In this document: one piece after another, positions 3,742-28,261 of the stretch
How the letters are laid out: each line of letters begins with the position of its first letter
Numbering within the stretch: the stretch's first letter is position 1
Assembly (NCBI GenBank): GCA_025454895.1
Contig: JALONO010000001.1
Span: forward strand, 1-42,864
From: Bernardetiaceae bacterium
Lineage (GTDB): Bacteria; Bacteroidota; Bacteroidia; Cytophagales; Thermoflexibacteraceae
Reading direction: 5' to 3'
DNA length: 42,864 bases
Notes under the pieces: generated by a model
Database searches by the model: none
What the model was told of the DNA's origin: nothing
What the model saw: the letters and a program-made list of their open reading frames with translations, nothing else
Position numbers and translations under genes: made by a program

Positions 3742-3905
3742 GCTGAGCCTTGCAAAAGTTGCTCTTGCGCGCGGGCAAGTCTGTAGTACTAATGCTAGAA
3801 TGATTTAGTGATTGTTTTCCTTGTTTATCAGTCATTTACAGCATCAGCAAACCCAAAATTCTTATTTGATTTTGGCAGAAGGCTTACTTGCCGATTGGTT
3901 TAAAA

Positions 3906-17637: not shown

Positions 17638-17757
17638 AAAATTTACGCGATAAAGCCGAGGGCAAGTTAGTGAAATGACGGCGTGATTGCACAATCCACG
17701 GGCGCGGCGGGCAGGGCTGATCCGTTTAAAAACATTTTTCGCAAAACTAATAAGACG

Positions 17758-17790
17758 CAAAGCTAGTTTGGGGCTTTTGACCGTACCAAA
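17758..17790 (-). promoter_or_regulatory. Promoter for the asparaginase gene (TTTG-N21-TAGCTTTG, minus strand)
   Basis: On the minus strand TTTG (17790-17787) and TAGCTTTG (17765-17758) are 21 bp apart. A second -7 match, TAGTTTTG, lies at 17749-17742. Transcription from the first would leave a leader of roughly 115 nt. Confidence 0.55.
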
Positions 17791-17872
17791 CTGGCTATAA
17801 ATGGCCTATTCCGAGCCGCCAAAAGTAGAAAGGATCGCCCCTGCGCGGCGGAGTGCGCAAAACCTGCCGCTG

Positions 17873-23681: not shown

Positions 23682-25193
23682 ATGGCACCAGTTATCCGTA
23701 GCTTGGAGCAGGAGTACGACCTGCCCGGCCTTCCCGTGGAGGGAAAAATCCCCGATTGGCTCAACGGCAGCCTGATCCGCAACGGACCGGGAAAATTTGA
23801 GATCAACGGCCGGTCCGTCAGTCATTGGCTGGACGGGTACGCAATGTTACACAAGTTTGACATTGAAGGCAACAAGGTAACTTATCGTAATAAAATCTTA
23901 CATACGGAGAGCTACAAACAAGATTCGTCGGCGGGGAAGATCGTGAGCCAGTGTTTTGGGGCCGTGCCCGATCCCTGCCAGAGCTTGTTCCAAAAAATCC
24001 GCAGCACGTTTAGCCCCGTGGTGGACAACACCAACGTGAACGTGGTGCAAGTTGGCGAACATCACGCGGCCATCTCGGACCTTTCGCCCATGTTGGCGTT
24101 CGACTTTGACACGCTGGCCACCAAAGGCCCCCTCCAGTTCAAGGATAAATTTGAGCAAACGGTGATGCTGAGTGCGGCCCACCCGGCCCAAGACTACCAG
24201 ACGGGCGAACTTTTTAACGCTGTGAGTACCCTGGGGCCGCTGCCGCGCACGTACCTGTACAAAATCAGCCCCGACCGGCCCTACGAGCGGCAGGTGCTGG
24301 CTAAAATCAAGAGCCGGGGGCTGTTTTACTTCCACAGTTTTGCCCTCACGCCCCGTTACCTGGTAATGGTGGAGTGCCCCCTGCGGCTCAACTTGTGGAA
24401 AATGATGAAAGCCACCTTTGCCAACCGGGGCGTGGACACCAGCTTTGAGTGGCGCCCCCAACAGAACTGCCGGTTCCACGTGATGCACCGGGCCACGGGC
24501 AAGGTGCAATGCCTGGAAGCCCCCCCGTTCTTCTTCTTCCACATTGCCAACAGCTTTGAAACCGACGAAGGGTTGGTAATCGATTTGTGCCGTTACCAAA
24601 ACCCGGAGGTGTTCAATCTGCTCTATATTGATAAGTTACAAAACCAGGGCATGAACGACGACCACCTGGCGCAGTTATACCGCTATCGGGTTGATTTACA
24701 GACCAATAAAATCACCAGCGCGCGTTACAGCTCCGATATTGTGGAAATGCCCCAAATTTCGCCCAGGGTGGCGGGGCAGCCTTACCGCTACTTGTACCTG
24801 AGCGGGCGGTGCCCGGGCACGCCCCAGCGCGATTTTATGAACCAGTTGGTCAAGTTTGACCTTAAAAACAAGCAGCGGGCCACCTGGTACCAAGCGGGCA
24901 GCTACCCCAGCGAACCCATTTTTGTGCCCAACCCCGCTGGCCAGGCCGAAGACGACGGCGTGGTGCTCTCGCTAGTGCTGGACGCAAGCCAGCAGCACTC
25001 GTTTTTGCTGGTGCTGGACGCAGCCACCTTTACCCCCTTGGCCCGGGTGCGGGTACCCCACCACATCCCGCCAGACATCCACGGAGGATTTTTTAGCCGC
25101 AACGTGCCCCTCACCCGGCCACAAACGCCCACGAACGCCCCCCAGCCCGTGGGCAAGGCCAGCCAACTGGCCGAGCCAGCCGAAGCGGGTTAA
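23682..25193 (+). CDS. Carotenoid oxygenase (CCD/RPE65 family)
   Basis: A 503-residue seven-bladed propeller enzyme of the family that splits carotenoids oxidatively with a non-haem Fe(II). The four iron-binding His are in place: His167 (SAAHPAQD), His218 (FYFHSFALT), His287 (FFFFHIANSFE) and His467 (PDIHGGFF). The acidic second-shell residues that follow the third His are present as well. The stretch SEPIFVPNPAGQAEDDGVVL closely resembles animal beta-carotene oxygenases/RPE65. Retinal- or apocarotenal-forming activity is plausible, but the cleavage site cannot be deduced. No signal peptide. No carotenoid biosynthesis or rhodopsin gene is nearby. It stands alone, divergent from the TlpA-like gene, with an inverted-repeat element downstream. 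Confidence 0.93.
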   Translation: MAPVIRSLEQEYDLPGLPVEGKIPDWLNGSLIRNGPGKFEINGRSVSHWLDGYAMLHKFDIEGNKVTYRNKILHTESYKQDSSAGKIVSQCFGAVPDPCQSLFQKIRSTFSPVVDNTNVNVVQVGEHHAAISDLSPMLAFDFDTLATKGPLQFKDKFEQTVMLSAAHPAQDYQTGELFNAVSTLGPLPRTYLYKISPDRPYERQVLAKIKSRGLFYFHSFALTPRYLVMVECPLRLNLWKMMKATFANRGVDTSFEWRPQQNCRFHVMHRATGKVQCLEAPPFFFFHIANSFETDEGLVIDLCRYQNPEVFNLLYIDKLQNQGMNDDHLAQLYRYRVDLQTNKITSARYSSDIVEMPQISPRVAGQPYRYLYLSGRCPGTPQRDFMNQLVKFDLKNKQRATWYQAGSYPSEPIFVPNPAGQAEDDGVVLSLVLDASQQHSFLLVLDAATFTPLARVRVPHHIPPDIHGGFFSRNVPLTRPQTPTNAPQPVGKASQLAEPAEAG

Positions 25194-25269
25194 TACTAAA
25201 ATGACTTTATGATTGCATGATTAGAGTTTTTGAATGTTGATAATGAGCATTTTAACTGAATTCAGAGAA

Positions 25270-25500
25270 GGCCCCTCCCCGACGGACGACCGAAAGCGAA
25301 TGAGCTTTTGGGGCGAGCCTGTGTGGTGGCTTGGGGTGGGGCCAAGGCGAGCGAATTTAATCGCATTTTTATAATAAAATTCATCAAAAATATATTGATA
25401 GAGGCTTTATAATAAATTCCACTTTTTTTGGCCCCACCCTATCCAGCCGCACTTTCTCGCCCAAAAACTCTCGTTTTTGTCGTCCGTTGGGGAGGGGACG
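25270..25500. mobile_element. MITE-like element with ~75-bp imperfect terminal inverted repeats
   Basis: The left arm (25271 to about 25346) begins CCCCTCCCCGACGGACGAC and goes on through TTTTGGGGCGAG to GGGTGGGGCCAA. The right arm (about 25428-25499) is its imperfect reverse complement: TTGGCCCCACCC, CTCGCCCAAAAA, then GTCGTCCGTTGGGGAGGGG. Between them is an AT-rich core of some 80 bp with no ORF. The whole could fold into one long hairpin. No target-site duplication is evident and no second copy lies in this window. A non-autonomous transposable element or a dispersed intergenic repeat is the best reading; a large shared terminator for the converging genes on either side is the alternative. 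Confidence 0.6.
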
Positions 25501-25540
25501 CAATTACGACCTGAGTACGGGTAATGTGCAAGAGTTCTAA

Positions 25541-26227
25541 TTAAGGCTGCAACAGAACGGCCACGGCTGGAGCCATCAGCTCGGCCCAGGCCTGGTACAT
25601 TTGGCCCGAAGGGTGCAGCCCGTCGCTGGCTACCAGGCCCGGTTGCTGGGCCGCCTGCCGCGAAATGGGGGTGATGTCGAAGTAGCGCACGCCATAACGA
25701 TCCGCCACGGCCCGGTTGGCCGCATTGAACTGGTCAAGCTCCCGCCCGATTTTGGCCGGGTCGCGGTCGGCCGCGAAGGGCGTAACCCCATAGTCGGGGA
25801 TGGACACCACGAACACCCGCGTCGCCCGCCCGCCCGCGTGCGCGACGGCAGTTTGGAGCAGTTGCTCGAACTCACGCTCGTAGTTGGCTAGGGGGTAGCC
25901 CCGGTACTGGTTGTTTACCCCAATCAGCAACGATACCAAGTCGAAGTCGGTAGGCGGGTTAGCTTGGGCGATGGCAGCCGCCAACTCGTCGGTGGTCCAG
26001 CCAGTGCGGGCAATTATTTGCGGGGCGGCCACCAGTATACCCCGCTGGGCCAGCCGGGCGGCCAGTTGCACGGGGTAGCGCTCGTCTTCGGCCACGGCTT
26101 CGCCAATGGTGTACGAGTCGCCCAGGGCTAAGTAGCGGATAGTCATGGTGTTTTGCGGGCTTTTGTGCGACGAACAGGCGGCCAACCCCCAGCAGGTCAG
26201 GGCAACCAGTAACCAGATAAATTTCAT
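25541..26227 (-). CDS. SGNH/GDSL-type hydrolase lipoprotein
   Basis: A 228-residue esterase/lipase-like enzyme of the SGNH superfamily. The lipobox LAAC puts the acylated Cys at residue 18, so it is probably membrane-anchored in the periplasm. The catalytic blocks are visible: block I GDSYTIG (Ser38), block III GVNNQ (Asn near 105) and block V SDGLHPSG (Asp202, His205). It is close to the tesA-like branch (thioesterase/lysophospholipase), but the substrate is open. It diverges from pyrR with a 163-bp gap and converges on the inverted-repeat element at 25270-25500. The ATG at 26227 gives the lipoprotein signal directly. Confidence 0.9.
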   Translation of the reverse strand: MKFIWLLVALTCWGLAACSSHKSPQNTMTIRYLALGDSYTIGEAVAEDERYPVQLAARLAQRGILVAAPQIIARTGWTTDELAAAIAQANPPTDFDLVSLLIGVNNQYRGYPLANYEREFEQLLQTAVAHAGGRATRVFVVSIPDYGVTPFAADRDPAKIGRELDQFNAANRAVADRYGVRYFDITPISRQAAQQPGLVASDGLHPSGQMYQAWAELMAPAVAVLLQP

Positions 26228-27919: not shown

Positions 27920-28261
27920 CCTAATTTTAAGACGGTTGCCCAGTTTAGCTGGCTCTGCCCGCACGCCTGCCTGCGGGTAAGCCCAGTCGCGCGCGGGCGG
28001 TCTGGGGGCGTTCCTAGATTTATAGGATAATCATCGTTCTACTTGGTTTTATCAATCAAGCAATCAGCGATCCATTTTTTTTATAAACAACTGACAACCA
28101 AGCACTAAAAATCCCCAAGCAATGTAAAATCGCTTGAGGATGATGGCCGGGCTGGGTTAACGCAAAATCCAATGGAGATAGCGTATTTTCTATCTTTTAA
28201 ATGATTGACAATCCGATGAAACCATCATTTGATCATCCAATCATTTAGTAGTGGTTTGAGC
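27920..28261. other. Intergenic region after pyrB
   Basis: 342 bp between converging genes. It contains a CCCGCA/TGCGGG hairpin (27958-27977) and a 9-position stem TCCCCAAGC/GCTTGAGGA with one mismatch (28112-28140). Neither is followed by a T-run. The rest, especially 28015-28260, is AT-rich with no ORF worth calling. Confidence 0.45.

Follow-up and report, generated by a model that had tools for sequence, protein, structure and literature searches.

TIMEs are reportedly mosaic non-autonomous elements that are, by the title of their description, derived from Tn3; the elements analyzed here are likewise mosaic and non-autonomous and carry IS5-type ends. The same kind of ends and of MITE-within-a-MITE cases is found in BrickBuilt and related MITEs of Porphyromonas gingivalis, whose ends match the IS5 family in the available part of the source (PMC4596501). 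However, BrickBuilt families comprise ~10–20 copies each with a duplication of varying length, whereas well above 100 copies and a consistent 3-bp ANT duplication are found here, and unlike BrickBuilt, as far as described there, the present families are joined in hybrids via a shared hairpin cassette (PMC4596501). Correia elements, Chunjie and QMITE2 are, by the description available, likewise bacterial MITEs that reach high copy numbers, vary in length and lie mostly between genes (PMC10969869). ISCaa2 and ISCaa3 of Amoebophilus are assigned, in the part of the source available, to the ISL2 group of the IS5 family and are autonomous, whereas the element described below is non-coding; ISCaa3 has a length of 914 bp, which is also the length of an insertion sequence with TAGAGTTCTTC ends (L203 in genome G181), and the sister group of ISCaa2/ISCaa3 is given there as cyanobacterial, as is the best end match found here (PMC3196728).

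The locus described here lies in a stretch of 42,864 nucleotides of a Bernardetiaceae bacterium, which we refer to as the window. It carries an element that is very probably an IS5-type MITE moved in trans, present in the window as an apparent hybrid of two sister families, A and B, and by now probably fixed. In the open-licence literature searched, no publication recognisably describes the A/B family, and the literal end sequence occurs only in papers unrelated by title. A/B is a new MITE family of a known kind of selfish DNA, of which it is an unusually rich example.

Extent and Structure of the Window Element

The original prediction placed a 230-bp element with ~75-bp imperfect inverted repeats and an AT-rich core at 25270–25500. 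The inverted repeat and the AT-rich core are real, but the boundaries were drawn too narrowly: this interval is the inner portion of a larger element of 316 bp (25223–25538), and beyond the predicted interval, conserved family sequence continues on both sides until it ends in terminal inverted repeats, at 25222 on the left and 25539 on the right (25222–25539, TA to TA, 318 nt, in the frame of our scripts). Two arm pairs were aligned, an outer one of 24 nt (25272–25295/25474–25497, 88% complementary) and an inner one of 40 nt (25306–25345/25428–25467, 75% complementary) that encloses the AT-rich core, and the 318-nt strand is predicted to fold with −144 kcal/mol compared to a mean of −86.5 kcal/mol for shuffled sequences (z = −11.2), none of the 100 shuffles being as stable. 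As also predicted, the element encodes no open reading frame of at least 100 aa within its 316 bp, and it lies between convergent open reading frames at 23682–25193 (+) and 25541–26227 (−).

Judged by end types, pairing and family matches, the element is a hybrid of the type Al-By. It is preceded by the truncated end of another repeat, termed C (25191–25223, 97% identical over 33 bp), which is cut off by the MITE, and by the left flanking triplet ATT (25220–25222). The A-type left arm with its terminal repeat (25223–25271) is assigned by an Al label score of 38 and by similarity to A, and is followed by the left hairpin cassette (25272–25345), the AT-rich A-type core (25346–25427; the similarity to A continues to 25440–25497 in A copies) and the inverted right hairpin cassette (25428–25497). 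Matches to A reach 25497 and matches to B start from 25424, placing the switch from A to B inside or adjoining this right cassette. The B-type right arm By with its terminal repeat (25498–25538) is assigned by a By label score of 47 and by similarity to B. The right flanking triplet AAT (25539–25541) differs from the left one, and its last base lies within the stop codon of the right-hand gene.

Copy Number and Ends of the Two Families

A BLAST search of the window element against its own genome, in which 40 of 203 candidate regions were scored, returned at least 87 pieces; as these fall in some dozens of places, itself a lower bound, the element is a dispersed repeat, as the multiple copies expected from the original prediction would have it. 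This copy number also excludes the alternative of a single copy at one syntenic place, which would have favored a plain terminator structure. Comparison of the copies revealed the two end families. The ends of B read TAGACCTCTTGC..ATTA, and the terminal 12-mer is matched at 229 sites (≤1 mismatch) compared to 6 for the reversed pattern; those of A read TAGAGTTTTTG..T.TTGA.AAT.A and are matched at 96 sites (≤2 mismatches) compared to 0 in the control. In stretches chosen through matches to A or B, 99 end-to-end pairs were found (18 Al-Ar, 54 Bx-By, 15 Bx-Bz, 4 Bw-Bx, and 8 mixed), of which 91 join ends of one family, with a mean length of 249 bp. Assuming two ends per element, the genome is estimated to contain roughly 160 elements, corresponding to near 1% of its length.

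The A and B elements are non-coding MITE families whose related copies in this genome number well above one hundred. The window element is short and without coding capacity, and the family is dispersed, present in many copies and bounded by terminal inverted repeats; the two ends of the window copy agree only loosely, because each belongs to a different family. Between full-length copies, identity reaches 94.5% at most, which gives no indication of recent activity; for the 70 of 93 elements that have a full-length match, the median of the best matches is 87.7%.

Hairpin Cassettes and Modules

The ~75-bp arms of the original prediction are two inverted copies, different in subtype, of a hairpin cassette of ~74 bp, which occurs as H1 (AAAAGCGAATGAGCTTTT), H2 (AAAACGGGAGTTTT), H3 (AAAACGAGAGTTTT) and further subtypes, with two-sided stem changes among the subtypes. 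The cassette pattern yields 63 matches in 50 of the 99 elements, at least one of these matches being unlike a cassette. A copies hold up to two inverted cassettes, the left and right subtypes of which combine freely (H2/H1, H1/H3, H3/H2, H1/H1), and B copies usually hold one or none of these subtypes. In the window copy, an H1-like left cassette with one base change is paired with an H3 right cassette, and these arms are 77% identical. A further module of ~140 bp, D (GCAGGGGCGATCC...GATCAGCCCTGC), stands alone in the window at 17708–17850, elsewhere occupies the central GC palindrome inside A and B elements, and occurs three times in tandem in a hybrid element (L156).

This composition invites the reading of a modular MITE system, in which the cassettes (H1, H2, H3 and others), the tandem-capable D module of ~140 bp and at least six terminal arms recombine to give new types of element whose ends stay usable. 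We regard this wider reading as speculative and rather improbable as it stands; if it were true, one absent or foreign transposase could mobilize a growing set of hybrid elements. The elements as found are a clear case of bacterial MITEs diversifying through the exchange of internal hairpin cassettes and even of ends, and the copies present here are enough to count such events.

Target Duplications and a Nested Insertion

According to the ISfinder rule for the group, members of the ISL2 group of the IS5 family generate a 3-bp ANT target duplication. For comparison of the flanking triplets, the element was taken as A...T inside TA...TA, and 88 same-type pairs were used, the three hybrids (L061, i.e., the window copy, L154, and L156) and eight pairs that were wrongly paired or scored low at an end (L023, L064, L067, L073, L077, L081, L094, and L125) being omitted. 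The triplets are identical in 72 of the 88 pairs and unequal in 16, whereas shuffling of the partners gave a mean of 29.8 and a maximum of 43 identical pairs in 10,000 trials. ANT is present on both sides in 76 of the 88 copies, in agreement with the ISL2 group.

The length of the duplication was confirmed by a nested insertion. At L154, a B copy (920–1397) is nested within a hairpin cassette, the uninterrupted paralogue of which is present in L004. Joining of the flanks with one TA kept leaves a difference of exactly 3 nt to the uninterrupted cassette, as predicted by a duplicated ATT, which confirms a 3-bp target duplication. The presence of TA at both ends had at first been read as a TA duplication; this was dropped, since the nested case differs by 3 nt and points to ANT. 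A match spanning the junction was obtained for 24 of the 99 joined flanks; several of these lie within repeat C, again with a difference of 3 nt, others have other gap sizes, and some are side matches to adjacent repeats. The search for empty sites that had been proposed to check the prediction thus has its equivalent in a paralogous repeat (L004 compared to the nested copy in L154), and the proposed search for target duplications succeeded for the family (72 of 88 with equal triplets), but not for the window copy itself (ATT/AAT).

Insertion Sequences With Matching Ends

By sequence comparison, the MITE ends are of the type used by the IS5-family transposase group NF033581; in print, a related element has been placed in the ISL2 group. 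These ends are common to autonomous insertion sequences of this group (L182, L106, and L121). In the cyanobacterium Myxacorys californica (L182), a 947-bp insertion sequence with an open frame of 283 codons has the ends TAGACCTCTTGCACATTA and TAGACCTCTTGCAGATTAG, which equal the By and Bx ends of the B family, and has ATT as its left and right flanking triplet; the transposase it encodes reaches 189.7 bits against NF033581, above the cut-off of 140. In G011, a genome of the same family as that of the window, a 933-bp insertion sequence (L106; TAGACTTCTTGCGAAAGTAA, with 20 of 20 terminal bases paired) contains two frames with HTH_Tnp_4 and DDE_Tnp_1/DDE_Tnp_4 domains and is flanked by the unequal triplets AAT and ATT. 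Within the window’s order, homologues were found in 46 of 390 genomes, to which the window’s own genome does not belong. Of 30 loci fetched from this homologue search and scanned for TAGA-type ends only, 12 have such ends, in which 14 or more of 20 bases are paired; some of these read TAGAGTT.TT.C, a sequence similar to the A end. In named genomes, in a set from which the records of the window’s own genome are possibly absent, the 19-mer TAGACCTCTTGCAGATTAG was found in 20 stretches, 19 of which are titled cyanobacteria and one a Treponema MAG, and in 8 of these 20 stretches short end pairs lie 79–247 bp apart; another of the 20 is the stretch with the L182 insertion sequence. In cyanobacterial stretches (L185, L190, L192, L193, L194, L197, and L201), pairs of TAGACCTCTTGCAGATTAG ends of 79–81 bp enclose nothing coding.

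In the assembly of the window’s own genome (389 contigs, 95.55% complete), no transposase of the NF033581 type was found, so that the partner is either lost or missing from the assembly; an autonomous partner in the same genome is usual, not required. The original suggestion to look for a transposase with matching ends was thus borne out in other genomes, not in the own one, in which there are 0 matches. PF13358 likewise has 0 matches in this assembly, and no match was found for PF13586. The only PF01609 gene of the assembly belongs to an IS5-family insertion sequence (L107 1165–2015, G000:C209; 167.8 bits against NF033580, cut-off 110) with a perfect 22-bp repeat (CTAAGAAGCTGTTTGAGTTAAA), and was rejected as partner, its ends being unlike those of the MITEs. 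This insertion sequence seems to lie within a coding region.

What emerges is a large population of MITEs for which no transposase is detectable in the assembly and the ends of which are tied to a group of insertion sequences of cyanobacteria and of other genomes of the window’s order. The many copies, the 3-bp duplications of the family and the insertion sequences with the same ends elsewhere bear out the MITE-like dispersed element of the original prediction.

Origin of the Window Copy

From 25222, the window copy is 76–88% identical to A copies, up to at least 25440 and in several of them up to 25497, and between 25424 and 25539 it is 86–96% identical to the closest B copies. Its end scores (Al 38, By 47) compare to 11 (95th percentile) and 32 (99th percentile) for random stretches of the same loci, which include some real ends. 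Because an A left end and an A core are joined to a B right end and flanked by the unequal triplets ATT (left) and AAT (right), the copy is read as an A × B recombinant, most likely the product of an A copy and a B copy that recombined within the cassette common to both. To the left, the remainder of repeat C is absent, and none of it is present at the right. Elsewhere, A and B copies lie only 5 and 9 bp apart (L062 and L072). Unequal triplets are also found in the two other hybrids, L156 (By-Al) and L154 (Ar-Bx), the latter being itself split by an inserted B copy; equal triplets are thus found in 0 of 3 hybrids compared to 72 of 88 same-type copies, three hybrids being a small number to carry this comparison. 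L154 is of the type reciprocal to the window copy (triplets AAT/ATT); its Ar-side flank is, by eye, unlike the missing part of repeat C, and it is not claimed as the reciprocal product of the same exchange. L023 is a mixed and badly decayed element with equal triplets (ATT/ATT), in which the A left end is gone and a stretch resembles the end of the L107 insertion sequence; it may be counted as a decayed fourth hybrid.

The history of the locus would then be as follows. An IS5-type transposase supplied in trans would have bound to the ends and placed copies at ANT sites. Of the sister families A and B, which share the hairpin cassette of ~74 bp, an A copy would have entered repeat C, a B copy would have been inserted where the gene on the right has its stop codon, and recombination in the shared cassette between these two copies, perhaps as a deletion between neighbors, would have produced the hybrid. 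The copy is now probably fixed and immobile, as suggested by the lack of a transposase and by the best full-length identity of 94.5%, and would persist as a long hairpin between convergent genes that causes little harm there and could have an incidental effect on transcript ends. The mobility of the elements is supported by comparing the sequences of copies, ends, duplications and the nested insertion.

It is also conceivable, although unlikely, that the hybrid MITE transposed as a unit and that one triplet was mutated later. Both ends of the window copy belong to the TAGA type, so that related transposases could recognize them, the unequal window triplet could reflect one point mutation, as 16 of the 88 same-type copies differ as well, and the decayed L023 has equal triplets. 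Against this stand the triplets of the three hybrids, the presence of repeat C on the left side only, and the finding that among the 99 pairs there is no other Al-By element of the window structure. Much less probable is that the hairpin cassettes are themselves the mobile unit, as in REP, BIME or REPIN sequences moved by a RAYT, and that the outer arms are passengers. The inverted pairing of the cassettes and their several subtypes with two-sided stem changes would suit such elements. However, CGTC REPs are described, in the available part of the source, with CGTC at one end before a stem starting with AT pairs and with a CCA-like tail (PMC3733652), an arrangement not found here: in the cassettes, sampled from stretches selected via A/B matches, CGTC follows the stem and is thus on the wrong side, and the stems start with C, without an AT start. 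Moreover, the conserved outer ends and their duplications account for the dispersal, and many B copies lack the cassette, none of its subtypes being found in 17 of the 54 Bx-By rows. The least credible of these explanations is a structured RNA or a plain bidirectional terminator without any mobile history. The very stable hairpin, the convergent genes of the window and the location of 40 of the 99 related pairs between convergent genes would fit it, whereas the dispersal of the copies, their terminal repeats, their target duplications and the 37 of 99 pairs between codirectional genes do not; in addition, a scan for a GC-rich stem followed by a T run gave 0 terminator-like sites, and the best Rfam score was 34.8 bits compared to a gathering score of 230, with sub-threshold plant microRNA hairpins as the only matches, corresponding neither to an intrinsic terminator nor to a known Rfam RNA. 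A terminator activity as a side effect of the window hairpin is possible. For genome annotation, the recombined, IS5-type MITE favored here accounts for many intergenic palindromes that might be mistaken for terminators or RNAs.

Genomic Context and Distribution

Using a simple codon-usage gene finder, 40 of the 99 pairs were placed between convergent, 37 between codirectional and 4 between divergent genes, 18 could not be assigned and none lies inside a gene; the window’s own gene pairs, for comparison, are 8 convergent, 17 codirectional and 9 divergent. The convergent bias is as expected if selection removes insertions upstream of genes, with an insertion preference as the alternative.

The window element has matches in 0 of 12 other genomes of the family, and none were found in plasmids and phages. 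The 18-mer of the B end (one mismatch) occurs, besides the own assembly, only in G011, with 11 sites, and the ORF lists of the stretches fetched there contain no obvious transposase. Also in G011 (L080–L098), TAGACATCTTGC-like ends are found, several of them forming pairs ~200–235 bp apart that contain no transposase and may represent a parallel MITE set.

Repeat C is an AT-rich sequence of ~106 bp with ends like TAATACYAAAAT and a self-complementary middle. Next to the truncated end at 25191–25223, the window contains two fuller copies (3790–3875 and 28163–28249), both between convergent genes. In the window and the stretches examined, repeat C has 70 distinct matches, and many of the A/B copies have inserted into it or next to it. 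The protein of the left neighbor of the element (23682–25193) is matched only in the own assembly among 13 genomes, i.e., in 0 of the 12 other genomes of the family. This gene is carotenoid-cleavage-dioxygenase-like, scoring below the family cut-offs, and was possibly acquired.
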